A stretch of 64,000 nucleotides of DNA, taken from positions 1 to 64,000 of the forward strand of contig CAIMUX010000131.1 of NCBI GenBank assembly GCA_903844735.1. Reading direction: 5' to 3'. The notes under the pieces are model-generated. The model was not told the DNA's origin and made no database searches. It saw nothing but the letters and a program-made list of their open reading frames with translations. The stretch comes from Candidatus Eiseniibacteriota bacterium (GTDB taxonomy: Bacteria > Eisenbacteria > RBG-16-71-46 > CAIMUX01). Positions 8,001-62,690 of the stretch are shown one piece after another. Position 1 is the first letter of the stretch, and each line of letters starts with the position of its first letter. The position numbers and the translations under genes are program-made.

Positions 8001-10324
8001 GTGGCGGCGGCGGCACCCCGGTTCGCAAACGCGAGATTCAGCGCCACCGTCTCGCCGACCTCGATCCGGCCGTTCCCGTTCCCGCGGGTTCCGTCGTTGC
8101 CGTCATCAACGATCGTGTACCCAGTAGCCAAGATCCCGGAGGCGGCGGCAAGGCGGACGGTCCCCGAACCGAGAAACGTTTTCGCCAACGGATGCGTCAC
8201 CGTCACGCTGAAAGAGCCTGTGCTGGTAGGGGCGAAGGGAACATCGACCCGACCGTCAGCGCCGGTGGCCGCCACCCCAAGGGCATCGTCGTCCTTGAAG
8301 AAACAGACACGGGCGCCGGCCAGCGGATCACCGGCGGAGTTCAGCACAGTCACCGGCGCCCTGGCGGCACCGATCGCGAAATCGGCCGGGGCGGTCACCC
8401 GCATCGCCTCCGGTAGGGTTCGCCAGATATTCAGGTCGGGGTCGCCGAGAATGATGAGGCCATAGAGGAGAAAGCGAACCGTGCCCTCGCCATCTCCTTG
8501 CTCCGCGCCAAGACGATCCACAACATCCCGGTAGGCGCCTCCCATGGTCTGCTGGGGATCATTCAACCAGTCGGAGAAGATCGCGTCCTGAAACTTGCGC
8601 GCGGTCGCCGGAAAATCGAGGCTGGTGGAACCCACGTAGTTCACCCCACCCCCGTTGGGCGCCAATTGCCAGGCCTCGCCCACGCAGTCCGCGTCGACGG
8701 CAGCGGAGTTGCAGTTCACCGCATAGGCGAGTCCGCTGTAGCGCGGCCCGTTGGTCAACCCCGCCACGTCCGAAGTCAAAAGCCGGCCGGTCCCGATCGC
8801 CCAACGGTCGCGGTCCCCATGTCCCACCTGATGGACGATGTTCCGGCCGGCGTTGAGCGACGCTACGACGTTGGTCCGGTTCAACTGCTTGGCGTTGATC
8901 TCACGCCGCGGATTCCACCAGTATTCACGCTCGTACTGCTGATCAAACGTGAAAAACGACTTGAAGCTCGACTTCTTGATCGAGTCGATCAGGGCGAAGC
9001 ATTCGGCCGCCCCGTCGGAACGTACGCAGGGGGTCGGTCCACCGGCAAGGCATTCATCGGCGTTGCCGAGGCGCCAGTCAGGATCGAAGAGGACTTCGCC
9101 AAGGGTTAGCACGCTCTCAAGATAACCCGGAGTGAGATCAGGGTTCTTGACGTACTTCAGGTACTTCCGAACCCAGAAGCCCACCCGGGTGGTATCGAGG
9201 GCGGAGACCCGGCCTACGCGCAGCTCGGGCCTAAGGTCGACCTTGTCGCTCTCGTTGCTGGTCCCCTGAACAAGTGCCTCGCCCCAAAGGTTGTCGCCGT
9301 CGGCGTTCCAATTGCCGTCGAGGCATGCGTAATAGTAGTCGGTGGCGATACTCACCCCGATGGGCGCGTTGTACGCGTAGCTCCGCGCGTAACGAATCGG
9401 GACAAGGGAAGGATCACCGCCGATGATCACGGTGCGCGTGCCCCAAAGGGCGTAGGCATCGCGCAGGAAGAGGCGGATGCTCTCCGCCAGGTCGACCCCC
9501 TGTGGGTAGTCCCGCTCGACCGCCTCCACCGTGCGGATCGCGGCCGGGTACCCCTGACGGTTCTTCCAATCAATCAACGGTTGGAAGGCGGGAGCAAGCC
9601 CCTCGGTCGTGATCACGAGGAACTCCACCGGAACCGAATCGAGGCTGGGACGGGTCGTCGGCGCGAGTCCGCCGCGCAGGGCGTGGATGATCGTCCCTTG
9701 CGCCCCCTTGTCCGCGGTGTCGGCAGGGACCGCGTCGTCGGCCACGGTCCGCCGCGGGGTCGCCGCCTCACCCGCGCCGACCCCGGATGTCACCTGCACG
9801 GTAAGCGTGCCGCCCGGAAAGCGCTCCAGGTCACGGCTTCGGGGATCCCAGCGCAACGGGCACACGAGAAAGCCTGCCTCCGCAAGACCTGCATGGACCT
9901 GCACCCCGCGGTAGAGGACCTGCTCGGCAGGCCAGGGGACGGTACCGCCATAGGTCCCCGGGTCCGGATCCGGCAGAACCGGGCCGCCGGCCTCGGATGG
10001 GAGGTCGCGCCAAGCGGGCGTCGGCATAACGTCATGGGCCAGCAATACGCCCGGTTCCGGGTCGAATGACCAGCTTGTGATCCGCGCCGCCGCGTCCGCC
10101 AGCGGCACGCGCACCACCGCCCAGGGCAGATCGGGCTGCCCTGGCTCTGCAGCAGAGACGCCGCGGGCAAGACGAACGGACACCGTGCCCCCGGGGCCCG
10201 GGAGGATCCCATACTCCGCGCCGGCCCAGTGTAGGGTGACCCTGGTCGTGACCTCTCCGAGGGCGCTCGTCCCGAGGACGAAGAGCCCGACGAGCGCGAG
10301 TAGCGCGCCTGTCCGCATCCGCAT
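5036..10324 (-). CDS. Giant secreted C25 (gingipain-type) protease with VCBS repeats and FlgD tail
   Basis: A 1762-residue exported protein. ATG 10324 is preceded by AGGGGAGG and starts a signal peptide (MRMRTGALLALVGLFVLG). The longer upstream frame reads through GGGCTTC repeats and is an artefact. An N-terminal beta domain (about 25-230) precedes a C25 caspase-like domain (about 230-590); I read the catalytic dyad as His in HQVGHGD (near 501) and Cys in AVNCNSA (near 538). Next come Ig/CARDB-like domains, an FN3 domain near 1000-1100, VCBS/FG-GAP propeller repeats with DINGDGLPE (about 1155) and DIDGDGDLD (about 1403), and a FlgD-type tail starting PNPFNP near 1678 and ending VVLLK. Known relatives are surface or secreted Arg/Lys proteases; the substrate here is unknown. 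Confidence 0.9.
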   Translation of the reverse strand: MRMRTGALLALVGLFVLGTSALGEVTTRVTLHWAGAEYGILPGPGGTVSVRLARGVSAAEPGQPDLPWAVVRVPLADAAARITSWSFDPEPGVLLAHDVMPTPAWRDLPSEAGGPVLPDPDPGTYGGTVPWPAEQVLYRGVQVHAGLAEAGFLVCPLRWDPRSRDLERFPGGTLTVQVTSGVGAGEAATPRRTVADDAVPADTADKGAQGTIIHALRGGLAPTTRPSLDSVPVEFLVITTEGLAPAFQPLIDWKNRQGYPAAIRTVEAVERDYPQGVDLAESIRLFLRDAYALWGTRTVIIGGDPSLVPIRYARSYAYNAPIGVSIATDYYYACLDGNWNADGDNLWGEALVQGTSNESDKVDLRPELRVGRVSALDTTRVGFWVRKYLKYVKNPDLTPGYLESVLTLGEVLFDPDWRLGNADECLAGGPTPCVRSDGAAECFALIDSIKKSSFKSFFTFDQQYEREYWWNPRREINAKQLNRTNVVASLNAGRNIVHQVGHGDRDRWAIGTGRLLTSDVAGLTNGPRYSGLAYAVNCNSAAVDADCVGEAWQLAPNGGGVNYVGSTSLDFPATARKFQDAIFSDWLNDPQQTMGGAYRDVVDRLGAEQGDGEGTVRFLLYGLIILGDPDLNIWRTLPEAMRVTAPADFAIGAARAPVTVLNSAGDPLAGARVCFFKDDDALGVAATGADGRVDVPFAPTSTGSFSVTVTHPLAKTFLGSGTVRLAAASGILATGYTIVDDGNDGTRGNGNGRIEVGETVALNLAFANRGAAAATGVTARLRRVEAVPAFRVVLTDSTETIGNLAAGASGDSARAFLLTVSESGLAPLETADRLVLPLVIEWQADGVIHTQRIVPEVDRPDFELIHTVRWETVLPPGGHADSIPNIGETMSLCVELYNQGSGSWGRLRARLEGVPGAGSAVMIDSVAGFPPLEPGASAFSDTMLFRVRVSSGFQLNLIIEDTTGVEPQRIWTRLLRLSRVPTTVPLALQSLGEPNSVSLSWVKPNNTPYVWGYRVYRADSLDGDFQRLAPGFVKATRYVKDEGLPDMQRYWYQVAVIDESGIEGPRTEPAEASSSPGVLAGWPVAVDESRDACPTIENLNGWGENEVLFLSNAVYCFGAKGDDYYDGDAIPSTRGVLTRVADGQNFNGKCAVADINGDGLPEVIALASNNMEGGNNPPSALCVYDHLGRLLWQKVVTNRPAIGAPAIGNIDDDPEMEIVFLCGKVLFAYNHDGTPFADKPDGKLRSLPGPDTGANAYQYCSVALANLDVDGRDEIVFTTNSQDDAYCMLYVINAVESSPGGSPEYGTNVPGFPFLYKTALGGATGQSSSASPAIADVTSKVVDNHTLPGGPPDGKPDIIITTKSRLWVFDPWTSFADKLVWTMALVSQLPEGPLTSSPAVGDIDGDGDLDIAVAGGGGALYVVDGRTAEALPGFIESTSNRYKQVAPLTARLGCPILADLDGVVDPTYGKRLPEIVIGDNTGRVYALRKGGKGMNGFPFTVPGGKVGIGLAAWDVDRNGFQNLVIQAEKVQEMRVLDFNTCPFDAEDRVANPWPAFRHDSRNTGSVALPPGPTPVQVVALEAEVSAGVITLRWRTDIDVRSFVLLRAAEPGGEWMTLSDRPAEELMGEPGSFTLTDEPPSGTWRYRIDALDFAGQVRQSGETVVTVGSPLTFRLHSPRPNPFNPHTVIRLDLPRAAICDLRVVDPSGRTVRRLLKGGAGPGTVETIWDGTDDDGHSVGSGVFFVRAAAEGQGPAVQKVVLLK

Positions 10325-10438
10325 GAGAACCTCCCCTGGTTTCACAGCCCAACCCGGCCGACGGCTCCCGCCCCCCGGGTCCACCGCGACATCTTCGGCG
10401 AAACCCCCGTAAGATTCAACCTCGACTCCATCCTTCCC

Positions 10439-10545
10439 GAGATTCGGAGCACGGAGCGAATACGACGGGCTTCGGGCTTCGGGCTTCGGGCTTCGAGCTT
10501 CGGGCTTCGGGCTTCGGGCTTCGGCTGGCGGCGCCGCGGGCGCCG
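10439..10545 (-). repeat. Dispersed intergenic element, copy 2
   Basis: Eight 7-bp units GGGCTTC (10467-10522, one variant) adjoin ATTCG-N10-CGAAT (10442-10461). Read on the minus strand, the order is GAAGCCC repeats, inverted repeat, then CGAATCTCGG (one mismatch to the common 10-mer), pointing to the C25 protease gene about 115 bp further on. Confidence 0.75.
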
Positions 10546-10698
10546 CCGGCGGACACATCGGTTCGCCGGAACACGTGCCGCGCGCAAAAAACGAGGGAGT
10601 TCGTGAGATTCCTCTTGCCCCCCACGCTGTCCGGTGGTACCAAGGGAATCGTTTTCGGGCCTAACACAGCCACACTGGACCACGGAGGGTTACCTGCC

Positions 10699-11019
10699 AT
10701 GACCAAGACCCAGCTGATCGATGCGTTGATGAAGGAGGTCAAGGTCGTCGACAAGACCGTCGACCTGAGCAAGAAGGAAACGAAGGCGATTCTCGCGGGC
10801 CTGACATGCCTCGTCGAGAAGACCCTGAAGAAGGGTGACGACCTGCCCTTGTCGGGGCTCGGCAAATTCAAGGTGCAGAGCCGCAAGGCCCGCATCGGCC
10901 GGAACCCGCAAACCGGCGCCGAGATCAAGATCGCGGCAAAGAAGGTCGTGAAGTTCACGGTGGCGAAGAATCTGAAGGACACGGTTCTGACGAAGAAGGC
11001 CTCCGCGAAGAAGAAGTAA
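10699..11019 (+). CDS. hup: HU/IHF-family DNA-binding protein
   Basis: A 106-residue histone-like protein of the bacterial HU family that bends and compacts DNA as a dimer. The start MTKTQLIDAL is the usual HU N-terminus, and GGAGGG lies 8 nt upstream. The beta-arm signature region reads IGRNPQTGAEIKI, where HU carries GRNPxTG with the intercalating Pro. The C-terminus has a short Lys-rich extension (TKKASAKKK), making it about 15 residues longer than E. coli HU. The gene is monocistronic, with an unusual 16-bp tandem repeat and a terminator after it. A weak promoter (TTGCCC, 17 bp, TACCAA) may lie about 80 bp upstream. Confidence 0.95.
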   Translation: MTKTQLIDALMKEVKVVDKTVDLSKKETKAILAGLTCLVEKTLKKGDDLPLSGLGKFKVQSRKARIGRNPQTGAEIKIAAKKVVKFTVAKNLKDTVLTKKASAKKK

Positions 11020-11044
11020 CCAGCAACCGCCGGGCGGGGCTCTA

Positions 11045-11100
11045 CCAAGCCACAGTCCCGCCAAGCCGCAGTCTCGCCAGGCCACAGTCCCGCCAGGCCG
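11045..11100. repeat. 16-bp tandem repeat, 3.5 copies
   Basis: Units CCAAGCCACAGTCCCG, CCAAGCCGCAGTCTCG and CCAGGCCACAGTCCCG, then a half unit CCAGGCCG, lie between the HU stop and its terminator. The units differ by 2-4 bases. Confidence 0.85.
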
Positions 11101-13874: not shown

Positions 13875-13925
13875 CTGAGATTCGAAGGCCTCTGCCCTCG
13901 GGCTTCGGACTTCGGGCTTTGGACT
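13875..13925 (-). repeat. Dispersed intergenic element, copy 3
   Basis: GGGCTTCGGACTTCGGGCTTTGG lies beside the exact 10-mer CGAATCTCAG (minus strand, 13875-13884). The order and orientation are as in the other copies, with the 10-mer facing acpS. The repeat begins immediately at the stop codon of the upstream methyltransferase. Confidence 0.65.
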
Positions 13926-40041: not shown

Positions 40042-41928
40042 ATGCATACCCGAACCGATTTTCTGGGTCACCTCCGGGATTCCGTCCTTCTTTGCGACGG
40101 GGCGATGGGCACGATGCTGTACGCCCGCGGGGTCTTCATCAACCGCTGCTTCGATGAGCTGAATCTCTCTAGCCCCGCCCTCGTGGAGGAGGTCCACCGG
40201 GAGTACCTTCGGGCTGGTGCCGACATCATCGAAACGAACACCTTTGGCGCCAACCGCTACAAGTTAGTCCGCCACGGACTCGAGGACAAGGTGGCGGAGA
40301 TCAATCGGGTGGCAGTGGAGATTGCCCGTCGAGCCATCGAGACGGTTCGGCGAGATGCCTGGGTCGCCGGCTCCGTCGGACCGCTGGGCAACCCGAACCA
40401 AAGCCTCGATCCTCTCTCCCCGGCCGACGTGCGCGCCCTCTACGCCGAGCAGATCCAGGGCCTGGTGGATGGTGGGGTCGACGTCGTCATGATAGAAACG
40501 ATCGCGCGGCGCGAGGAGATGGAGGCGGCGATCAGGGCCGCACGCGAGATCGCCCCGGACATTCCGATCGTGGCTCAGATGAGCTTCAACGAGGACGGAC
40601 GCACCGTCCGCGGCGACGAAGCGGGAGATCTGGCCGGCTGGATGCGGGACCTCGGAGCCGATGTAGTCGGCGCCAACTGCGCCATCGGCCCCAAACCGAT
40701 GCTGGAGTGCCTGGAGGCGATGTCCCGACGAGGCGACTTCCTGCTCGCCGCCCAACCGAATGCCGGGACCCCCCAGTGGTTCGAGGGTCGCTACATCTAC
40801 TTTTCCTCGCCGGAGTACATGGCCGAGTACGCGCGCCGGTTTATCTTGTCCTGCGGCGTGCGCCTCATCGGCGGCTGCTGCGGCACGACCCCCGATCACA
40901 TCCGCGCCATGAGCGCCACCGTTCGCTCCCTTCATCCTTCCCGCCTCGATGTCTCAGCACCAGGCGGGGAGACCGGGCCGCCGCCGCCTGAGCCGATGCC
41001 GTTCGCCGATCGCAGCCGCTTCGCCCGAAAGCTGGCGGAGGGCCGCTTCGCGGTGAGCGTGGAGGTTTCGCCCCCGCGGGGCACGGAGACGGGGAAGGTC
41101 ATCGAGGGGGCACGCCTGCTGCATGCCGCAGGCGTGGACGCAGTGAACATCCCGGACGGCCCCCGCGCCAGCGCCCGGGTCGCCCCCATGGCGCTCGGAA
41201 TCCTCCTCGGCCGCGAGGTGGGCATCGAGGTGCTCCTTCACTACTGCTGCCGCGATCGCAACCTACTCGGCATGCAGTCGGATCTGCTCGGAGCACACGT
41301 ACTCGGCCTGCGCAACCTGATCATCATCACCGGCGACCCGCCGAAGCTGGGCGACTATCCCAATGCCACGGCGGTCTACGACGTCGACTCCATCGGGCTG
41401 ACCCGCATTGTGCGGAGGCTGAACCAGGGGCTGGACTTGGTGGGCAAGCCGCTCGGACCGCCTACCTCGTTCGTCATCGGAGTAGGTGTGAACCCGGCGG
41501 CGCCGAACCTCGACGAGGAAATCCGCCGGTTCCGGCTCAAGATCGAGGCGGGCGCAGAGTGCGCGTTCACCCAGCCGGTTTTCGACACCGACCGCCTGCA
41601 CGAATTCCTCGACCGTACGGACGATCTGCAGATCCCTATCCTCGTCGGCATCCTGCCTCTCATGAGCTTCCGCAACGCCGAGTTCTTTCACAACGAGGTT
41701 CCCGGCATGAATATCCCGGAGGAGATCCGCGAGCGGATGCGAAAAGCGACCGGCGGCGAAGACGCGCGCCGCACGGGAGTGGAGATCGCGCGCCAGGCGC
41801 TGACGGAATCGCGCGCTTTCTCGCGCATCCGCGGTGCTTATGTCATGCCTCCCCTCGGGCGCTATGAGCTGGCGCTGCAGGTGATCGAGGGTGTCCTGGA
41901 ACCTCCGGCGGGCGGAGCGGACAGGTAG
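40042..41928 (+). CDS. Bifunctional homocysteine S-methyltransferase / methylenetetrahydrofolate reductase
   Basis: A 628-residue fusion making methionine and methyl-THF. Residues about 1-300 are the zinc-dependent homocysteine methyltransferase: start LCDGAMGTMLYARG, zinc ligands Cys in GANCAIGP and Cys-Cys in GGCCGTTPDHIR. Residues about 325-620 are a MetF-type flavoprotein TIM barrel: FAVSVEVSPPRGTETGKV, LIIITGDPPKLGDYPNA and CAFTQPVFDTDRL. The architecture equals B. subtilis YitJ. CAGGAG lies before ATG 40042; it follows the Eis-like gene by 66 bp and may share its transcript. I see no S-box or cobalamin riboswitch upstream. Confidence 0.93.
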   Translation: MHTRTDFLGHLRDSVLLCDGAMGTMLYARGVFINRCFDELNLSSPALVEEVHREYLRAGADIIETNTFGANRYKLVRHGLEDKVAEINRVAVEIARRAIETVRRDAWVAGSVGPLGNPNQSLDPLSPADVRALYAEQIQGLVDGGVDVVMIETIARREEMEAAIRAAREIAPDIPIVAQMSFNEDGRTVRGDEAGDLAGWMRDLGADVVGANCAIGPKPMLECLEAMSRRGDFLLAAQPNAGTPQWFEGRYIYFSSPEYMAEYARRFILSCGVRLIGGCCGTTPDHIRAMSATVRSLHPSRLDVSAPGGETGPPPPEPMPFADRSRFARKLAEGRFAVSVEVSPPRGTETGKVIEGARLLHAAGVDAVNIPDGPRASARVAPMALGILLGREVGIEVLLHYCCRDRNLLGMQSDLLGAHVLGLRNLIIITGDPPKLGDYPNATAVYDVDSIGLTRIVRRLNQGLDLVGKPLGPPTSFVIGVGVNPAAPNLDEEIRRFRLKIEAGAECAFTQPVFDTDRLHEFLDRTDDLQIPILVGILPLMSFRNAEFFHNEVPGMNIPEEIRERMRKATGGEDARRTGVEIARQALTESRAFSRIRGAYVMPPLGRYELALQVIEGVLEPPAGGADR

Positions 41929-42432: not shown

Positions 42433-45400
42433 ATGAAACGAGTGAGTACGCTCGGGCCAGTAGTCCTTTTGATTCTGTGCTTTGCCACCATGGCGCCGTC
42501 TGGAGCGAATGCCCAAACCGGCGACTACGGTGACGCCCCGGAGGGAGTCCCGGCTTATCCGCCGGCGGCGATCGTGGGTCAGTTTCCGACCTGTCGGAAT
42601 CTCGGCCCCGCCGGCTTCATCTATCACGGGTTCGTGACGCTGGGAACCTGGTTCGGGCCGACGGTGGACATGGAGGCGGACGGGAACGCGGGAATGTGTA
42701 TGCCGCCGACCTGGGATCGGGATGAGTGCTCCCAGGGCACCGACGGTGACGCCGGGCTTCTGATTCCCGATCCGTACACGATCGTCGGCGGAGCGATCAC
42801 GCTCTGCGGGCAGGTCACGAATCCACGGGGGCTCGGAACGACCTGCTCTCAGGCCGTTTGGGGGACGAATGTCGACATCCTGGTGACCAACACCCAGACG
42901 AGCCCGGTCTATGTCAATGTGCTCATGGATTGGGACCAGAGCGGAACTTGGGGAAGCAGTTCGCTCTGTCCTCTAGCCGCCGCACCGGAACTGGTGCTGC
43001 AGAATTTCCCCGTGCCGGGCGGCTACAGCGGTCCGCTGTCGACGCTGATGGCCCTCGGCTCCGGCTTCCTGATCGGACCGAACCCTGGCTACGTGTGGAC
43101 GCGGTTCACCGTGACGCCGAACCAGCTCGGGGCGCTCTGGCCCGGCATCGGCAGCTTCGCCTACGGGGAGTCCGAAGACTACTTGCTCCGTGTCGACGAA
43201 ATGATCGACGAGTACCGGGATTTCGGCGATGCCCCCGAAGGCGCGACGGCCTATCCGATCCTCGGCACCCTCGGCCAGTTCCCGACCTGCATCAATCTCG
43301 GTCCGGCGGGATTCGTTTCTCATCGTTTCCCGACCAGTGCTTGGTTCGGCCCAACGGTCGACTCGGAGATAGACGGGAACGCGGGAACTTGCCCGCCGCC
43401 GCCGTACGATCAGGACGAGTGCTCCCAGTTCGCGGACAACGACGCGGGGCTCTTGTTGCCTGATCCGTACACGATCATCGCTGGGATCGAAACGCCCTGC
43501 ACTCAGATTGCAGTCCCGCAGGCGCTGGGAACGACCTGCACGTGGGCTGCCTGGGGTCCGAACGTCGACATCCGCGTCAACAACAACTCAACGTCGGATG
43601 TGTACGTCAATGTCCTCATGGACTGGGACCAGAGTGGCACGTGGGGAGGCGGCACCCAGTGTCCGCTCGGACCGGCACCGGAGTGGGTGTTGGTCAATCA
43701 GATCGTGCCCGCCGGTTATGTCGGGCCGCTGTCCATGTTGTTGCTCGCTCCCCACCCGTTCATGATCGGCCCGCGAAACGGGTATATCTGGAGCCGCTTC
43801 ACGGTCACCGGTGTGCCGATCCAGTCGGGCGACTGGGACGGGGGCGGCGCCTTCGACCTGGGCGAGTCGGAGGACTACCTGCTCCGCGTGGACGAGAAAA
43901 TCCTGGAGGGGGACTTCGGTGACGCCCCTGAAGGAGCGATCGCCTACCCGGGACCGGCGACCCCGGGTCAGTTCCCGACCTGCATCAATATCGGCCTGGT
44001 GGGTACCTATGTGTTCCATCCGATCCCAACCAGCCTTTGGTTCGGACCGACGGTGGACTCGGAGCTGGACGGCAACGCGGGCGCCTGTCCGCCGCCGCTC
44101 TACGATCAAGATGAATGCTCGCAGGGAACGGACATCGACGCCGGGTTACTCATGCCCGATGCGTACACGATCGTCGGGGGCCTGGTCACACTCTGCGGGC
44201 AGGTTACCAATCCTCGGCCGCTGGGGACGACGTGCACGCAGGCGACCTGGGGCGCAAACGTCGACATCATGGTGAACAACACTTCGACGCTGGATGCCTA
44301 CGTGAATGTCTTGATGGACTGGGATCAGAGCGGCACATGGGGAGGCAGTAGCCAATGTCCGATGGGAACAGCACCGGAATGGGTGCTGTCCAACCAGGTC
44401 GTGCCGGCGGGCTATGTCGGGCCGTTGTCGGGACTGTTCCTCACTCCCACGGCGTTCCTGATCGGACCCATGGCCGGCCACGTCTGGTCGCGGTTCACGA
44501 TCACGCCCGAGCAAGTGCTGTCCGAGACCTGGAACGGCAGCGGCACCTTCGGCGCCGGCGAATCCGAAGACTACCTCCTTCGGGTAGACATTCCAATGCC
44601 CGAGGGCGACTACGGCGATGCTCCCGAAGGGGCGGTGGCCTATCCGTCCCTGGGGATTCTCGGCCAGTTCCCGACCTGCACGAACGTGGGCCCGGCCGGA
44701 TTCGTGTTCCACTCCGCCTTCACGACCTCCTGGTTCGGCCTGACTGTGGACTCGGAGATGGACGGCAACGCCGGCATCTGCCCACCGCCGCCGTACGACC
44801 GGGATGAGTGCTCATCCGGGACCGACCCGGATGCGGGGCTCTTAGCGCCCGATCCGTACACCATCGTCGGCGGCGTTGTCAGTCTCTGCGGGCTGGTTAC
44901 CAATCCCCGGGCACTGGGAACGACCTGCGCCCAGGCGGTGTGGGGATCGAACGTGGACATTCTGGTGACGAACAACGCCACCACTCCGGTCTACGTCAAT
45001 GTGCTCGTGGACTGGGACCAAAACGGCGGATGGGGTGGCGTCAGCCAGTGCCCGTTGAACAACCCGGCGCCGGAATGGGTGCTCCAGGATCTCCAGGTGC
45101 CTGGGCCCTACAATGGGCCGTTGTCGGCGCTGCTGCCTCTCGGCTCCGGCTTCCTGATCGGCCCCCGGAGCGGGTACGTCTGGACCCGTTTCACGATCAG
45201 CCCGGTCCCGATCGGGCCGACCATGTGGGACGGCGGTGGAGTCTTCCCCGAAGGTGAATCTGAGGACTATCTCCTGCGCGTGGATGGGCCGGAGCATGGT
45301 GGGGACTTCGGTGATGCGCCTGAGGGGGCCCTAGCCTATCCGAGCACCGGAATGTCAGGCCAGTTCCCGACCTGCATCAATGTCCTCCCGACAGGCTTTG

Positions 45401-46293
45401 TGTCCCACGGGTTCCCGACCCTGGCCTGGTTCGGGACGACGTTTGACGCGGAGCCAGACGGAAACGCGGGAATCTGCCCGCCTCCGCCATACGATCAAGA
45501 TGAGTGCTCACCGGCGACGGACATGGACGCCGGGCTCTTGATGCCGGATCCCTACACCATCGTTGGTGGTGTGGTCACCGTCTGCAGCCAGGTTTCCATT
45601 CCTCGGACGCTGGGCGGGGCCTGCACGCCGGTGGTCTGGGGCCAGACGATCGACATTCTTGTGAACAACAACACGAACGCCGAGGTCTTCGTCAACGTCT
45701 TGATGGACTGGGACCAGAGCGGCACGTGGGGCGGCACCAGCATCTGTCTGCCGGGCTGGACTCCGGAGTGGGTGCTGATCAACTTCCCCGTGCCGCCTTT
45801 GTTCATTGGGCCGCTGTCGGCACTCGGGCCTCCGGGTTTCGTGAGCGGTCCGCGAGGGGACTACGTCTGGTCTCGGTTCACGATCACGACCCAGCCGGTA
45901 CTGCCCGCGGACTGGGACGGTAGCGGCTCGTTCGACGACGGGGAGAGCGAGGACTATCTGATCCTCGTCGACTCGCCGACGAGCGGCACCCACGAGGTGG
46001 ACGGGCCGGGCGTCCGGGAGCTGGTGCTCGAAGCGGCCCAGCCAAACCCATTCAACCCGTCAACGACAATCGCTTGGGCGATGCCGGTCGCCATGCCAGT
46101 TCAGGTCATGGTGCACGATTCCGGCGGTCGGGTGGTTCGCCGGCTGATCGATAGGGCTCTGAACGCCGGCCACCACACGGTGGTGTGGGACGGCGAGGAC
46201 GACGCCGGACGGCCGGTCGGTTCCGGGGTGTACTTCGTCAAGGTGGTAGCGGGGAACGAGGCCCGCACAACGAAGGTCATGCTCGCGAGATAA
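42433..46293 (+). CDS. Secreted protein with five GEVED repeats and FlgD tail
   Basis: A 1286-residue exported protein. ATG 42433 follows AAGAAGGGGG; the signal peptide ends GANAQ. Five tandem units of 231-232 residues each begin D-Y/F-G-D-A-P-E-G (codons at 42523, 43219, 43912, 44608, 45304) and end G-E-S-E-D-Y-L-L-R-V, the GEVED module signature. Each unit also holds a Cys-rich WFGPTVDSE-type block, a DQDEC Asp-rich patch that may bind calcium, and VNVLMDWDQSGTWG. The tail begins AQPNPFNPSTTIAWAMP and ends TTKVMLAR. The units are very similar at DNA level, implying recent duplication. It is probably a surface adhesin or matrix protein; the ligand is unknown. Confidence 0.88.
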   Translation: MKRVSTLGPVVLLILCFATMAPSGANAQTGDYGDAPEGVPAYPPAAIVGQFPTCRNLGPAGFIYHGFVTLGTWFGPTVDMEADGNAGMCMPPTWDRDECSQGTDGDAGLLIPDPYTIVGGAITLCGQVTNPRGLGTTCSQAVWGTNVDILVTNTQTSPVYVNVLMDWDQSGTWGSSSLCPLAAAPELVLQNFPVPGGYSGPLSTLMALGSGFLIGPNPGYVWTRFTVTPNQLGALWPGIGSFAYGESEDYLLRVDEMIDEYRDFGDAPEGATAYPILGTLGQFPTCINLGPAGFVSHRFPTSAWFGPTVDSEIDGNAGTCPPPPYDQDECSQFADNDAGLLLPDPYTIIAGIETPCTQIAVPQALGTTCTWAAWGPNVDIRVNNNSTSDVYVNVLMDWDQSGTWGGGTQCPLGPAPEWVLVNQIVPAGYVGPLSMLLLAPHPFMIGPRNGYIWSRFTVTGVPIQSGDWDGGGAFDLGESEDYLLRVDEKILEGDFGDAPEGAIAYPGPATPGQFPTCINIGLVGTYVFHPIPTSLWFGPTVDSELDGNAGACPPPLYDQDECSQGTDIDAGLLMPDAYTIVGGLVTLCGQVTNPRPLGTTCTQATWGANVDIMVNNTSTLDAYVNVLMDWDQSGTWGGSSQCPMGTAPEWVLSNQVVPAGYVGPLSGLFLTPTAFLIGPMAGHVWSRFTITPEQVLSETWNGSGTFGAGESEDYLLRVDIPMPEGDYGDAPEGAVAYPSLGILGQFPTCTNVGPAGFVFHSAFTTSWFGLTVDSEMDGNAGICPPPPYDRDECSSGTDPDAGLLAPDPYTIVGGVVSLCGLVTNPRALGTTCAQAVWGSNVDILVTNNATTPVYVNVLVDWDQNGGWGGVSQCPLNNPAPEWVLQDLQVPGPYNGPLSALLPLGSGFLIGPRSGYVWTRFTISPVPIGPTMWDGGGVFPEGESEDYLLRVDGPEHGGDFGDAPEGALAYPSTGMSGQFPTCINVLPTGFVSHGFPTLAWFGTTFDAEPDGNAGICPPPPYDQDECSPATDMDAGLLMPDPYTIVGGVVTVCSQVSIPRTLGGACTPVVWGQTIDILVNNNTNAEVFVNVLMDWDQSGTWGGTSICLPGWTPEWVLINFPVPPLFIGPLSALGPPGFVSGPRGDYVWSRFTITTQPVLPADWDGSGSFDDGESEDYLILVDSPTSGTHEVDGPGVRELVLEAAQPNPFNPSTTIAWAMPVAMPVQVMVHDSGGRVVRRLIDRALNAGHHTVVWDGEDDAGRPVGSGVYFVKVVAGNEARTTKVMLAR

Positions 46294-46700: not shown

Positions 46701-47867
46701 TTAGGGAATCGTGGACGGCGGCTGAACGACGGGTGGCGAAACGGTGAGCGGCAGGGGCACCGTGAGGGAATCGGGCAACTCGGGAGCAAGCGCGTTCAGG
46801 ATCCCCGCCGCTTCCAGCACGGCAAGGCCGTCGGTCCCGATCCTGACGTAGTCTCGGAAAACACGGGCGGCATCGATCCGCCGTCCCGCGCGCAGCAATT
46901 CAGTCCCCAGCTCGAAGTAGGTCGGCTCGTAGGAAGGTCGCAGACGGATCACCTCGCGGAATTGGCGCGCAGCGCCGTCGTGGTCCATCTCCCCCGCCAG
47001 CACCAGACCGAGGTTGTAGCGGGCCTCGGGATGGTCGGGGTCGAGGGCGACGGCCGCTTCATAGGCCGGGCGCGCCGCCGCCGGCTCGCCCAGGCAGTGC
47101 GAGAGATAGCCGCGCTGGAACTGGTCCTCACCCTCGGCTCGCCCCGTGGCGCACAGGAGCTCGAAAAGCCGCCGAGCCTGCGCCAAATACCCCCAATCCT
47201 TCCACGCAAAGCCGGCGGCCCGGAGGAAGCTCGGCTCCCGGCTTGAGCGCTCCACAGCACGCATGTCTGCGGCCATCGCCTCGGTGAAGCGCCGGTCTCG
47301 CCGAAGAAGAATGGCCAGGTCGTGCGAGACCCCAGCCGGGGCATCGTGCCTGCAAGCTAAGACCTCGAGCGCCACGATAGCGTCCCACACCCGGTCGAGC
47401 CGCACCAGAAGCCGGGCGTTCAGGACGGCGGCACGGAGCGAATCGGGTCCCGAGGACGCCTCTGCCAGGTAGATGGCCAGGTGATGGCGCGCCGCGAGAT
47501 CATTCCCCATATGGAAATAGAGCTCGCCCAGACCGAGATGCGGTTCGAGGCGCGACGGATAGCGCCGGAGGATTCCCTGCAGACGACGGAACTCTCGATC
47601 CAAGTCGGCGGGAGATGGCGCCCTTTCCGGCGGGTCGACCCGCACCGACCCGGTCTCGATCGGCTCGGTCGGATTCCCCTGCCGTGGCAGTCCGCGTCCT
47701 GCGGGTGCTGAGGTCGCGGGTTTCGCCGGAATCCACGTGGCACGGGCAGGCATCACCGGCACGCCGCCAAGCACGAGAAGGGCAATCCCGACGAACAATC
47801 GCCGGAACGCACCGCAAGTAGCGAGTAGCGGAGCCGGAAGACGAGGCCGCCAGACACCCTCCTGCAT
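46701..47867 (-). CDS. Exported TPR protein
   Basis: A 388-residue protein with an N-terminal signal or anchor (FRRLFVGIALLVLGGVPVMP) and a Pro/Thr-rich linker to about residue 90. Then come about seven tetratricopeptide repeats, clearest in LGLGELYFHMGNDLAARHHL, YEAAVALDPDHPEARYNLG and FREVIRLRPSYEPTYFELG. The C-terminus is Pro-rich (PLPLTVSPPVVQPPSTIP). TPR domains mediate protein-protein contacts, so an envelope assembly scaffold is plausible. A perfect AGGAGG sits 4 nt before ATG 47867, immediately next to the dispersed inverted repeat, which thus forms its leader. Confidence 0.85.
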   Translation of the reverse strand: MQEGVWRPRLPAPLLATCGAFRRLFVGIALLVLGGVPVMPARATWIPAKPATSAPAGRGLPRQGNPTEPIETGSVRVDPPERAPSPADLDREFRRLQGILRRYPSRLEPHLGLGELYFHMGNDLAARHHLAIYLAEASSGPDSLRAAVLNARLLVRLDRVWDAIVALEVLACRHDAPAGVSHDLAILLRRDRRFTEAMAADMRAVERSSREPSFLRAAGFAWKDWGYLAQARRLFELLCATGRAEGEDQFQRGYLSHCLGEPAAARPAYEAAVALDPDHPEARYNLGLVLAGEMDHDGAARQFREVIRLRPSYEPTYFELGTELLRAGRRIDAARVFRDYVRIGTDGLAVLEAAGILNALAPELPDSLTVPLPLTVSPPVVQPPSTIP

Positions 47868-47873
47868 CGGTCC

Positions 47874-48180
47874 TCCTGAAATTCGGAGTAGAGAACGAAT
47901 ATGACTGGCTCCCGGCTCCGGGCTTCAGGCCTCGGGTTTCGGGCAGGTGGACGCAGAGCAGTCTCTGGATGGCACGAATCGGCTCGCCGTTCCGGGCCAC
48001 GAGTCCGGCGTGATCCTCCCTGCAATGGTCTGCCATCCTGAAGCCTAAAGCCCGAAGCCCGATTCCCGACAGATCCCTGCCCATGGTCTGCCATCCTGAG
48101 GCCTGAGGCCCAAAGCCCGAAGCCCGGTTTTCGACAGGTCCCTGCCCATGGTCTGCCGTCCCGAAGTCTACTCCGAATCT
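47874..48180. repeat. Dispersed intergenic element, divergent pair (copies 5 and 6)
   Basis: Minus-oriented copy: ATTCG-N10-CGAAT at 47881-47900 with GAAGCCC-type units to about 47945, facing the TPR gene. Plus-oriented copy: GAAGCCC-type units at about 48040-48165 ending in ACTCCGAATCTTGG, facing the gene at 48324. A phrase, CAGRTCCCTGCCCATGGTCTGCC, occurs twice (about 48070-48090 and 48139-48161). Nothing else is seen in 47868-48323. Confidence 0.7.
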
Positions 48181-54839: not shown

Positions 54840-57800
54840 TTGGCCTTGCAGGGATGGCCCAGAGCGAATCGACGCGAAAACCGAACGGGCGACCGTCCAC
54901 CGACGGCGGCGATCCGGCCATTCCTGTGGCTGGCCCTTTCCATCCTTACCGCAAGCCCGGCCCGCGCGTTCTACGGGGACGAAATCATCTCGGGAGAGGT
55001 GGCGCCGCCACCCGCGCCGGCGGCCCGCAGTCTTCGTACACTCTCCCCTGCGTTTCCACAGGGCGGACCGGCGTCGGGGCAGCTTTCGGCCGACCCCGGC
55101 GGGCGGCTCTTTCTCGACCGGAATGTCGCGTCGCACCCGCTGGCCGCCGGCACCCTCTCCCTTCTGGCGACAGAGACGGACAAGACGTGGAGGTCCTCTC
55201 CGCAGTTCGAGATCGTAGTGGTGGCCGAAACCCCGCGTGTGACGTTCACCCGCGGACGCCAGGTCGTGCGCGGACGCCCCGTGCTCGGCTCTTTCCTCAC
55301 GGTGGCCTGGCATGCGTCAGGACGGCCGGCACTTTTGCGCACCGACGCTTTTCCGGGCGCGGACGCGATCTGGCCGGCGGCCGCCTGGCGCTCCGACGAA
55401 GCCGGAGGTACCGCTTTACGCGGTCTCCCCTTCACCGCGGTCGAATGGGAATCAAGCGAAGAAGCGTGGCTGCCGGTCGCCGGTGACGACGGGGAGACTT
55501 CCCTGCTCCCAACCTGGAACCTGCGGTTCCGCACCGAGGGCCCGCCAGGCCGTTGGGAGGCCCGCGTGCACGCCCGCACCGGCGCTCTGGTCTCCCGGCA
55601 CAACCTTCTCGCCTTCGAGTCGGTCGAGGGAACCGTGGAGGCCATGGTCGAGCCGGGCATGCCGGGTGACCCACCGGTCGTCGTCCCCGTGGAAGCCGCG
55701 GCGGTCACGGCCGTGTCAGGGCAGTTCTTCGCCGCGGACACCACGGGGCCCGGCGGCGACTACTCGCTCGTGCTTCCCGGCAATGGGAAGGCACGGGTCA
55801 CCGCGGAGCTGCGTGGCCGGCGTGCCTGGGTACGCAATGCCTCCCAGGGCCTCAGAACGCCGTTGGACACCGCCACAGTGTCGGTACCTGGAAGCGCCAC
55901 TTTCAGTTTTGACGACGGCAATTCCACGCCGGCCCTGCGTGACGCCTACTTTCACCTCGTGCGTGCTCACCGCTTCACCCGGGCGCTCGACCCGGGCCCG
56001 GCACTCGCGCGGCTCGACCGGCCGATGGAGGCGCGCGTGGACGACCCAAGCGGGGGCTGCAACGCCTACTGGAACGGAGCCCGCCTCAACTTCTACGCCG
56101 CGGGCGGAGGTTGTGTCTCGACCGCCCGCATCGCCGATGTCGTCTTTCACGAGTACGGACACGCTGTGACGCAGAACTGCTATGAACCTTGGGATCCGCC
56201 GGGCGACATGAACGAGGCATTCAGCGATTACTTCGCGGCCACACTGACCGATCAACCGCGCATCGGGAACGGCTTCTTCGGACCCGGCTCGTTCCTGCGC
56301 GACGTCGACCGAGACCGGGTTTGGCCGCGCGACGCCAGTCCGAGCATCCACCTGCAGGGGTTGATCCTGGCCGGTGCGCTCTGGGATCTGCGCCGGGATG
56401 CCGGCGCGGCTGTGGCCGACCCGCTCTTTCACTACGCTCGCTATGGGGCCGCCGACTCCTTTGACGACTACCTGCTCGACATCCTGGCTGTGGACGACGA
56501 CGACGACGACATCGGCAACGGCACCCCGCACTTCGACGCTATCGTCCGCGCCTTTCGCGCGCACGGCATCGGCGACTACGCTGTGCACATCACCCACGCC
56601 GCGCTCCCTGATCTGGAGGATCCCGCGCCGGTGATCGAGGCCCGCGCCGTCATCCGGTCGCTCCTGGGGCTCGCCCCTGACTCACTGACGTTCTTCTACG
56701 CCACCGGGGGCACATTCACGCGTGTGGTACCACGGGCCACCGAGGCCTCCCGCGAGTTTATCGCCGAGATCCCGACTCCCGCTCCCGGAACGTCGATCCG
56801 GTATTACTGGACGGCCGCCGACACCGCCGGACACGCCGCGCGACTTCCCGCGCAGGCGCCGGATTCTTGCTTCGTCTTTTTCGTCGGCACTGACACGATA
56901 CCGCCGTCCCTCATTCACGAGCCGCTGGAGGCAGTGACTCGGGACCTGGCTCGCCTCACGCTGCACGCGTCGCTCGCCGACAATTCGCACCGAGTGGGCC
57001 AGGCGTTCGCCGAGGTGCGCTATCACGCGGACGCCACCGTAGTCGGGCCGTTCACCTGGCTGGGCGGAGGCGAATACCGGGCCGAGGTCCCGTTGCCGCC
57101 GTCCGGGGGCGACACCCTCACCTATCGTCTCACGGTCATGGACACGGCGAACAAACCCAATCTCGCGAACTGGCCGACGGCGGGAGAGCACACGGTCCCG
57201 ATCCGCCCGGGACAAACGCTGACGTTTGAGGATGGCCCGAGCGATCTCACCCCCGACGCCGGCTGGGAGTGGGGCGTCCCCGCTTCGCCGATTCTCGCCT
57301 GGAGTGGCACGCGGGCTTGGGCCACTGGATTGGCCGGCGCCTACGCGGACAACGCATCCTGGTCGCTCGCCTGGGGGCCGCTGGACCTGGGCGGCTGGGA
57401 CCGGGGGCGCCTCGAGTTCATGCATCGCTACCGCTCCGAGGATGGATACGACGGCGGTTGCGTAGAATACGCCACGCATCCGGAAGGACCCTGGTTTCCG
57501 CTCGTGCCCACGGGAGGGTATCCCTCGGCCCTGGTGCGGGCTCTCGACGCACCCGGATTCAGCGGCGACTCCGAAGGGTGGAGACGGGAGCGTTTCGCCC
57601 TCGATCGGCTCCTCGGACAGACGGTCTGGATCCGCTTTCGTTTCGAGAGCGATGCCCGGGTGCATGACATGGGGTGGGTGATCGACGATGTCTCGATCAT
57701 CGCGGCGCAGTCCCGGGCCATCCCCGCCTTCCTGCGCGCGGAGGAGTGCGGGCCGGATTGCGTGCAACTACGGTGGTTGCCCCCCCCTGAGGTCGACACC

Positions 57801-59447
57801 ACCTCGGCCCGCTTCATCGGCTACGAGATCCGGCGCGCCGAGAGTGACGGACCGTACGGGGACATTCCGATCCACCCGCTCCCACTGCGAAGCGTGAGCT
57901 ACCTGGACACGGGCCTCACCACCGACACCGTGTACCATTACCGACTGGTCGCGCTCTACGACGAAGGGCCGAGCGACCCCCGTCTCGCCGCGGCGACGCC
58001 CGCAGCCCCCGCCCTCGGACTCGATCTTGCGCAGATCATCTACGAGCTGCGCGGAACGGCACGCAGCGATACGAGCTTCCTGGCGCTGAATCGCACCGGT
58101 GGAGTGCTTCACATCAACACCTATCTCGGGGAGGCCGGCCAGCCCATCGACTCGGTCCGCCTCGTCCACGTCTGTCCCGGCGGTGACACTCCCTGGAAGG
58201 CGATGTGGGAGGACGCGATGGATGACCGCGTCCCCGCGGACCTTGCCGGGATCGACCTGCGGGAACGCATGGACCCGGAAATCGGCCCGGTGCTGGAGAT
58301 CCGCCTGCGTGGGCATGCTCCCTGGGGCGATCCTTCAACCTGGGGCGGACTCGTACTCATCGACACCGACGACAACGTCTCCACGGGCCTCGCCGAGATC
58401 AACCTCGGCGCCGATTTCCTGATCGCCTTCGGCGCGCTGGCGCGCGAGGCGGGACACGACGGGCCGGCGGTATTGCTCGACTCCTCTTTCCACCCGATCA
58501 GCCAACTCACCGGTGGAAGCATCGCTGCGGGGGTTCAGCCGGTGCTGTTGGCGGTCCCGCACGATCTCCTCGGCGCACCCGCGTCGGTGCGGGCGGCGGT
58601 CCGGCTGGCGACCGCGCTGGGCGCCGAACCTTACGACCGGGCGCCGGAGACGCCCCGCCTTCCCTGGCTCTCGCGAGAACCGCGCTACGGGCGGGCCAGT
58701 CCCGGCCACCCGCAACCGATCGCCGTGGACTTCGACGCCTCCGCCGTCGGCAACGGCACCTATGGCGCCAGGCTGTTCCTGGAAACCAACGACCGGACGG
58801 ACCCGCTGCGCGTCATCCCGGTGACGCTCCGCGTGAGCGGCCTGGTGCCCGACGAGGTCCGGAACCTCCGATTTGAAGCTTTCGACAACGGACGCTTTGA
58901 CCGAGGACTCTCGATGTCCTTCCGTCTGCCCACGGACATGCCCGTGAGCGGTGTGGCTGCGGAACGGTCGGACTCCGAACCGCCCCGATGGAGCGTGCGA
59001 ACGCCGGTGCCGATCCATCCCGATTCATCCGGCACCGTGGTGTTTCGTGACGCCAACGTCGAGCCGGGCAAATACGCTTATCGATTCCGGGTGGTGTACG
59101 AAACGACTGAACTGGTGCTCTACGGTCCTTACACCGCCACCTACGCTCCCACGATCCCGTCCGCACCGTGGCTGTCCCCGCCGGGCCCGAACCCATTGCA
59201 CGCGCCCGGAACCGGAGTGAAACTTCGGCTCGACCTGCCCACGGACGGTCCGGTGCGATTGGAAGCCTTCGATCCCGCGGGACGCCGAGTGCGCCTGCTT
59301 GTCGATGACGCGCTCCGGGCAGGCACGCACGTCGTTTCCTGGAATGGTCGCGACGAGGATGGGCACCCGCTCTCTTCGGGGGTTTACTGGATCCGCCTCG
59401 CCACCGCCCGCGGCGAGCGAAGCACGCGCCTCGTGGTCGTGCGATGA
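54840..59447 (+). CDS. Giant secreted zinc metalloprotease with FlgD tail
   Basis: A 1535-residue exported protein. The start is TTG 54840, supported by AAGGAGG 6 nt upstream and a long-n-region signal peptide (FLWLALSILTASPARAF). A pro-region-like domain comes first, then the zinc site HEYGHAVTQ (about 437-441) and NEAFSDYF (about 457-464, third ligand Glu). This is the HExxH...E pattern of thermolysin/fungalysin-like (gluzincin) peptidases. Later parts are a bridging Ig domain, a MAM/jelly-roll module (GRLEFMHRYRSEDGYDGGCV to GWVIDDVSII), an FN3 domain and a FlgD-type tail (GPNPLHAPGTGVKLRLDLP to STRLVVVR). It is likely an extracellular protein-degrading enzyme. Confidence 0.88.
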   Translation: MALQGWPRANRRENRTGDRPPTAAIRPFLWLALSILTASPARAFYGDEIISGEVAPPPAPAARSLRTLSPAFPQGGPASGQLSADPGGRLFLDRNVASHPLAAGTLSLLATETDKTWRSSPQFEIVVVAETPRVTFTRGRQVVRGRPVLGSFLTVAWHASGRPALLRTDAFPGADAIWPAAAWRSDEAGGTALRGLPFTAVEWESSEEAWLPVAGDDGETSLLPTWNLRFRTEGPPGRWEARVHARTGALVSRHNLLAFESVEGTVEAMVEPGMPGDPPVVVPVEAAAVTAVSGQFFAADTTGPGGDYSLVLPGNGKARVTAELRGRRAWVRNASQGLRTPLDTATVSVPGSATFSFDDGNSTPALRDAYFHLVRAHRFTRALDPGPALARLDRPMEARVDDPSGGCNAYWNGARLNFYAAGGGCVSTARIADVVFHEYGHAVTQNCYEPWDPPGDMNEAFSDYFAATLTDQPRIGNGFFGPGSFLRDVDRDRVWPRDASPSIHLQGLILAGALWDLRRDAGAAVADPLFHYARYGAADSFDDYLLDILAVDDDDDDIGNGTPHFDAIVRAFRAHGIGDYAVHITHAALPDLEDPAPVIEARAVIRSLLGLAPDSLTFFYATGGTFTRVVPRATEASREFIAEIPTPAPGTSIRYYWTAADTAGHAARLPAQAPDSCFVFFVGTDTIPPSLIHEPLEAVTRDLARLTLHASLADNSHRVGQAFAEVRYHADATVVGPFTWLGGGEYRAEVPLPPSGGDTLTYRLTVMDTANKPNLANWPTAGEHTVPIRPGQTLTFEDGPSDLTPDAGWEWGVPASPILAWSGTRAWATGLAGAYADNASWSLAWGPLDLGGWDRGRLEFMHRYRSEDGYDGGCVEYATHPEGPWFPLVPTGGYPSALVRALDAPGFSGDSEGWRRERFALDRLLGQTVWIRFRFESDARVHDMGWVIDDVSIIAAQSRAIPAFLRAEECGPDCVQLRWLPPPEVDTTSARFIGYEIRRAESDGPYGDIPIHPLPLRSVSYLDTGLTTDTVYHYRLVALYDEGPSDPRLAAATPAAPALGLDLAQIIYELRGTARSDTSFLALNRTGGVLHINTYLGEAGQPIDSVRLVHVCPGGDTPWKAMWEDAMDDRVPADLAGIDLRERMDPEIGPVLEIRLRGHAPWGDPSTWGGLVLIDTDDNVSTGLAEINLGADFLIAFGALAREAGHDGPAVLLDSSFHPISQLTGGSIAAGVQPVLLAVPHDLLGAPASVRAAVRLATALGAEPYDRAPETPRLPWLSREPRYGRASPGHPQPIAVDFDASAVGNGTYGARLFLETNDRTDPLRVIPVTLRVSGLVPDEVRNLRFEAFDNGRFDRGLSMSFRLPTDMPVSGVAAERSDSEPPRWSVRTPVPIHPDSSGTVVFRDANVEPGKYAYRFRVVYETTELVLYGPYTATYAPTIPSAPWLSPPGPNPLHAPGTGVKLRLDLPTDGPVRLEAFDPAGRRVRLLVDDALRAGTHVVSWNGRDEDGHPLSSGVYWIRLATARGERSTRLVVVR

Positions 59448-62617: not shown

Positions 62618-62690
62618 AACAGAAGCCTGAAGCCCGAAGTCTGAAGCCCGAAGCCATTGTATTCGTTCTCGGCTCCGAATCTCAGGTCCT
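62618..62690 (+). repeat. Dispersed intergenic element, copy 7
   Basis: Four GAAGCCC-type units (AAGCCTGAAGCCCGAAGTCT onwards) followed by ATTCG-N10-CGAAT (62661-62680) and the exact 10-mer CGAATCTCAG (62676-62685). It is oriented towards the GT-A gene at 62924. This is the cleanest copy in the window. Confidence 0.8.

Follow-up and report, generated by a model that had tools for sequence, protein, structure and literature searches.

Introduction

The GEVED domain (PF20009) was defined beside the adhesive CshA NR2 domain and classed as a stalk domain (PMC10952558). Here we describe a gene (42433..46293, forward strand) of a Candidatus Eiseniibacteriota bacterium, located in a 64,000-nucleotide stretch of contig CAIMUX010000131.1 (assembly GCA_903844735.1) that we call the window. 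According to the list of open reading frames (ORFs), the translation and the Pfam and NCBI models, it is a single ORF for a 1286-aa, five-module GEVED protein of the type IX secretion system (T9SS) type, which appears to join the already known class of GEVED-bearing proteins.

The window protein resembles the described domain in the C-terminal ~95 residues of its units, which match PF20009, but its motif reads GESED, its unit measures ~230 aa, of which the first ~130 residues are not covered by any Pfam model, and no NR2 partner was returned. In the comparison with CshA-type fibrillar adhesins, no NR2 model (Pfam includes one) was returned for the window protein (E up to 10) or for a set of 98 units of the family (E up to 1), and the putative anchor is a T9SS type A-like tail that scores over the TIGR04183 cut-off and under that of PF18962. 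As a candidate T9SS cargo, the protein has a sorting domain that passes TIGR04183 narrowly and is encoded in a genome with SprA and PorU.

Other likenesses come from the loci found in our own scan (numbered with L below). The S8-peptidase arrays L056, L048 and L109 have the same module in 2-5 copies and a FlgD_ig tail, but begin with a subtilase domain whereas the window protein begins with its modules. The enzyme-free Bacteroidota proteins L060 and L070 have four modules each, and L060, the one covered by the Pfam scan, starts with a hydrophobic stretch (judged by eye) and carries a FlgD_ig/Por_Secre_tail; their units, however, cluster by position with each other and not with the window. Lastly, longer GDAPEG...GETEDY repeats in L114, L115 and L117 (same class) and in L104 (Chloroflexi-labelled bin) share FPTC, QDEC, DxNxDGDW and GETEDY by eye, but with longer units and weak profile scores, mostly <50 bits, they apparently form a separate subfamily.

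Divergence of the five units

The tandem repeat that an earlier note had pointed out in the letters of the window is genuine. Its five units lie on the forward strand at 42523..43218 (unit 1, 232 aa), 43219..43911 (unit 2, 231 aa), 43912..44607 (unit 3, 232 aa), 44608..45303 (unit 4, 232 aa) and 45304..45972 (unit 5, 223 aa), with a spacing of exactly 696, 693, 696 and 696 bp between their starts, and each contains the D-x-D-E-C patch that had been noticed as DQDEC. The dating given to the array was wrong. Instead of near-identical units with high DNA similarity, we found whole-unit identities of 65.4-71.6% for DNA and 60.8-68.8% for protein, and over 300 nt a mechanical repeat finder gave 67-73% identity with its reference. 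Tandem Repeats Finder reported no array, its longest period of 500 bp excluding the 696-bp unit. Across the 10 unit pairs, synonymous divergence (dS) estimated with NG86 was 0.80-1.30, nonsynonymous divergence (dN) 0.22-0.32 and dN/dS about 0.20-0.35, and identity at shared fourfold sites was 0.403-0.556; a second estimator, YN00, returned a value for only two of these pairs (dS 2.46 and 1.44). As many as 105 alignment columns are invariant across all five units, which is far beyond chance. Our results showed that the array is old: its protein is under purifying selection, and its silent sites have diverged widely. An array is not young just because its units are evenly spaced and share a motif.

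The longest identical DNA run per unit pair was 14-24 bp, so there are no long stretches that slippage or unequal crossing-over could use. In a run test on the 172 variable third positions, no unit pair showed an unusually long shared tract (smallest permutation p 0.07 of 10).

Homologous arrays and unit tree

We searched 59 genomes of relatives, the own genome included and no other genome of the same genus among them, and an array match was present in 10 (again with the own genome). Within the family (n = 3 with the own genome) the match was confined to the own genome, one of the other two being merely 68% complete. A scan of species genomes using the five-unit alignment as query returned 59 loci, labelled Eisenbacteria, Bacteroidota, Cloacimonadota, Planctomycetota, Gemmatimonadetes, Verrucomicrobia, Thermoanaerobaculia, Chloroflexi, KSB1, CSSED10-310 and one archaeon, among others; all are metagenome-derived records in which the labels of single contigs may be wrong, and some share one bin (L051/L072, L068/L081 and L079/L089). 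Viral contigs gave no match with one unit as query.

At a threshold of 180 profile positions and 100 bits, strong units were tallied in 60 genes, which comprise 55 of the 59 loci, the window and four further genes. One unit is present in 35 of them, two in 18, three in two, four in two and five in three; for the 44 genes whose frame ends inside the locus, the corresponding counts from one to five units are 24, 15, 1, 2 and 2. For the tree we used 98 units, having dropped those with <195 matched profile positions or <100 bits as well as identical or contained duplicates, so that the second L066 unit, an exact copy, is not in the set. The tree was built by a quick method with the Shimodaira-Hasegawa-like approximate likelihood ratio test (SH-aLRT) only, and 22 of its 95 inner branches were starred and 38 open.

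The window's five units form one side of a branch with an SH-aLRT of 87 (the tool's mark is 95), which suggests, with moderate support, that they multiplied within their own lineage. The units of L048, L049 and L050 likewise group by gene, with a single change each among the 15 groups listed, and together with the window they point to within-lineage multiplication repeated over long times. Taking all 23 multi-unit groups, the tree needs 39 changes, as compared with a minimum of 22 and with 51 in shuffles. No gene-conversion signal was seen among the window units.

In several homologous arrays the units pair by position. Units of the four-unit proteins L060 and L070 are 91-93% identical between like positions and 50-68% between unlike ones, and the units of L057/L058, L069/L080 and L065/L073/L078/L091 follow the same pattern. 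Homologous arrays, once multiplied, can thus remain stable.

A young, unstable array, in which unequal crossing-over expands and contracts the units and changes a surface antigen, would account for the in-frame tandem arrangement and even length of the units, for a unit number of 1-5 among related genes, for the grouping of the window units by gene and for an exact duplication in the Bacteroidales homologue L066. In the latter (7998-11068), 1313 bp are repeated exactly at a distance of 1758 bp inside one long frame, so that either this module was duplicated recently or the assembly is wrong there. However, DNA identities of 65-72%, a dS near 1, a longest run of 24 bp, the absence of conversion tracts and the positional orthology in several homologous arrays contradict this scenario, which we regard as highly improbable; on these grounds we rejected both a young age and a recent change in copy number. 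The copy number of the family has changed over long times, but not recently in the window array, and the proposal that the array may change in copy number is at present unsupported. Of the two observations named beforehand as contrary to youth, high synonymous divergence was found in the window itself and fixed copy number only in homologous arrays elsewhere.

Some likenesses cross phylum labels. Same-position modules of L065/L078 and of L057/L058 are 75-89% alike in bins labelled as different phyla, and L096 is a module protein in a Thermoplasmatales-labelled bin whose nearest unit in the tree comes from a Planctomycetota bin. Either transfer between phyla or misbinning could produce these patterns.

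An extended GEVED module

The whole window protein scores 39.0 bits against PF20009 (gathering cut-off 24.4) in three stretches, and unit 3 by itself only 16.6 bits. A genome search with this model returned 0 of 1 own genome and 0 of 14 controls, though the window protein itself passes the cut-off, and was not used. At E<=1, 95 of the 98 units match PF20009 and any other family is matched by at most two units, so that the N-terminal part is without a Pfam model. Pfam GEVED covers only the last part of a larger conserved module, of which the loci found here have 1-5 copies per gene.

The G-E-x-E-D motif reads GESED in all five window units and, in the numbering of the 233-residue model, is conserved across the 98-unit set at E218 (97 units), E220 (92) and D221 (97). 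Cys25 and Cys60 are present in 98/98 units, Cys109 in 94 and Cys150 in 92, while Cys96 (84) and Cys70 (83) are less constant. Both Asp68 in the D-x-D-E-C patch and Asp137 in the DW(N/D)xxGxW loop occur in every one of the 98. Judging from this conservation, the acidic loops may bind calcium and the cysteines may pair as disulfides.

An AlphaFold2 model of unit 3 (233 residues, with one extra residue in front) gave confident beta structure, with a predicted local distance difference test (pLDDT) of 91.6 and a predicted template modelling score (pTM) of 0.90. The two-unit model, built on a shallow alignment of 28, reached a pTM of 0.55 and a mean pLDDT of 78.6. A fixed packing between units is therefore unsupported by the models; the low two-unit pTM would fit beads on a string, and would also fit the shallow alignment. 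A known fold was rejected, since Foldseek and VIA-align gave background-level sandwich matches only; CshA NR2 structures were not among the best 50 rows of either, which decides nothing. In profile searches against solved structures, the 98-unit alignment had 0 matches up to E 10, and the whole window protein matched FlgD structures only, through its tail. A search of the open-licence literature, in which the motifs of the module were not used as search terms, found no description of the extended module; the name GEVED turned up in PMC10952558 and PMC10178186.

We tentatively propose, as a possibility short of an expectation, that the ~230-aa unit forms an extracellular module in its own right, so far undescribed, with six cysteines, D-x-D-E-C and DW(N/D)xxGxW loops and a GEVED-type C-terminal part, and that it has spread through many uncultured phyla, carried both by enzyme-free surface proteins and by S8/C10 peptidases. 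If this is true, the array would be a heterovalent binder, each position keeping its own ligand. Of lasting value among the present results is the widespread module itself, for which there is no family model: many uncultured lineages carry it, on proteases and on proteins that look secreted, and it lends itself to the building of a family model and to binding tests.

Probable export by the type IX secretion system

The protein begins with a signal-peptide-like N terminus (42433..42522, forward strand; MKR..., a hydrophobic core and an end near ANAQ), read by eye from the translation. It ends with a FlgD_ig/T9SS type A sorting-like domain (46042..46281, forward strand; residues 1204-1283), which was recognized by PF13860 (FlgD_ig; 40.9 bits versus a cut-off of 27, residues 1222-1275) and, by a narrow pass, by the NCBI model TIGR04183 (24.6 bits versus 23). 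We searched the own genome for the components SprA and PorU and found both: SprA with 467 bits, summed over three stretches of one frame (cut-off 200), and PorU with 495.9 bits (cut-off 420). In 14 control genomes, neither component exceeded its cut-off. On these features the protein is probably exported through the T9SS, and its description as a surface protein with a GEVED repeat stands to that extent.

The window protein has 112 other matches in its own genome, all at query residues 1100-1286. These are due to the tail, which makes it one of many probable T9SS cargoes, and the five-unit array has no second copy in the genome.

The genome in which SprA and PorU are over cut-off belongs to the same order as a named Candidatus Eisenbacteria bin. 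Our search of the open-licence literature returned no paper pairing Eisenbacteria with type IX secretion.

Proposed role of the protein

The account that we favour, and consider probable, is that of a T9SS-exported five-module protein with a binding or stalk role, whose old array has diverged under purifying selection. In this account the signal peptide would take the protein through the inner membrane, and the type IX system would recognize the FlgD-Ig-like C-terminal domain and carry the protein across the outer membrane. Outside the cell there would be a string of five cysteine-rich, probably calcium-stabilized beta-sandwich modules of the extended GEVED form, which would offer several binding sites or serve as a stalk, either on the cell surface or in the medium. 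The copies would be the product of old duplication within the lineage, followed by divergence under purifying selection, so that each position is now a distinct module. We infer the binding or stalk role, and likewise a constant unit number within the species.

Several points weigh against this account. Where two units share an amino acid, their codons are identical in a fraction of 0.51-0.63, whereas the codon usage of the array would predict 0.46-0.48, and the excess over random expectation has p<0.05 in 7 of the 10 unit pairs; silent sites are thus near, but not wholly at, saturation. The module has no clear known structural relative, the best Foldseek match having an E of 1.3e-3 with a TM score of 0.27 and the best VIA-align Z being 7.0, in a range that the tool's own note calls common. 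The putative calcium assignment is based on conserved acidic loops. The tail scores 13 bits against PF18962, below the cut-off of 27, tails of the FlgD_ig type are also found in organisms without a T9SS, and the machinery was searched for in the genome through SprA and PorU. The adhesin role is drawn by analogy, and Pfam returned no NR2-like tip domain.

The modules could instead serve a secreted degradative system as accessory domains that bind its substrate, the window protein being a former or stand-alone protease partner like the S8-linked Eisenbacteria arrays. Our Pfam scan of homologues, covering 12 proteins of the 60 genes, found a peptidase domain in five: an S8 domain precedes the units in L056 (five units), L048 (three) and L109 (two), of the same order or class, and C10 peptidase domains occur in two Cloacimonadota proteins, L052 and L102. 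The weak fold matches include carbohydrate-binding modules (8wae, Z 6.3; 6o14, Z 6.2). On the other hand, seven of the 12 have no enzyme domain, including L058 (labelled Eisenbacteria, two units), the tree places the window units apart from the S8-linked ones, and a peptidase domain was detected neither in the window protein nor in the nine nearby frames scanned, although two peptidase-like proteins do sit in the window, 30 kb upstream and 9 kb downstream. We consider a protease partner rather unlikely.

A purely structural stalk, whose units only hold something else off the cell as proposed for GEVED in fibrillar adhesins, seems a little less likely again. The domain is counted among stalk domains with CshA NR2 in PMC10952558, and the two-unit model shows no confident common orientation. 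The translation and the Pfam scan revealed no further domain in front of the five units, however, and many of the invariant columns are N-terminal, outside the GEVED match.

Presence and absence of the gene at the locus

Upstream of the array gene lies a gene for homocysteine S-methyltransferase and methylenetetrahydrofolate reductase (MTHFR; 40042..41928, forward strand), and downstream one for a tetratricopeptide repeat (TPR) protein (46701..47867, reverse strand). In G002, a genome of the same family that is 97% complete, homologues of both flanking genes are on one contig ~50 bp apart with no array between them (62-63% identity for the methyltransferase/MTHFR and 39-41%, over part, for the TPR protein), and no array match was found elsewhere in that genome. 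The locus differs from G002 by a whole gene, through gain here or loss in G002, and near the window's lineage no variation was observed other than whole-gene presence or absence.

The GC content of the array gene is 0.647 and that of its third codon positions (GC3) 0.803, within the spread of the eight window frames compared (0.639-0.699 and 0.761-0.865, respectively); a recent foreign origin was thus rejected, composition giving no sign of it. A promoter and terminator scan found nothing above chance.

Other features of the window

At 54840-59447 (forward strand) the window encodes a 1535-aa protein with fn3 and InhA-like MAM matches below their cut-offs, a HEYGH metallopeptidase-like motif seen by eye and a FlgD_ig match over cut-off. 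A 1840-aa Peptidase_C25 protein with FG-GAP repeats and a FlgD_ig tail is encoded at 5036-10558 (reverse strand).

A 7-bp unit (GAAGCCC / CGGGCTT and variants) is repeated in short arrays at 1311-1435, 10466-10524, 13900-13920, 47913-48125 and 62622-62656. A two-unit pattern had 28 matches with <=2 mismatches versus 1.3 expected, and an exact 20-base pattern had 23 matches in the genome, some of them overlapping; the backward control of the latter gave 18 matches and is invalid, as the reversed unit is the same repeat in another phase. One such array falls inside the listed start of the 5036-10558 ORF, where it reads as PEARSPK repeats, so the true start of this ORF is probably downstream.

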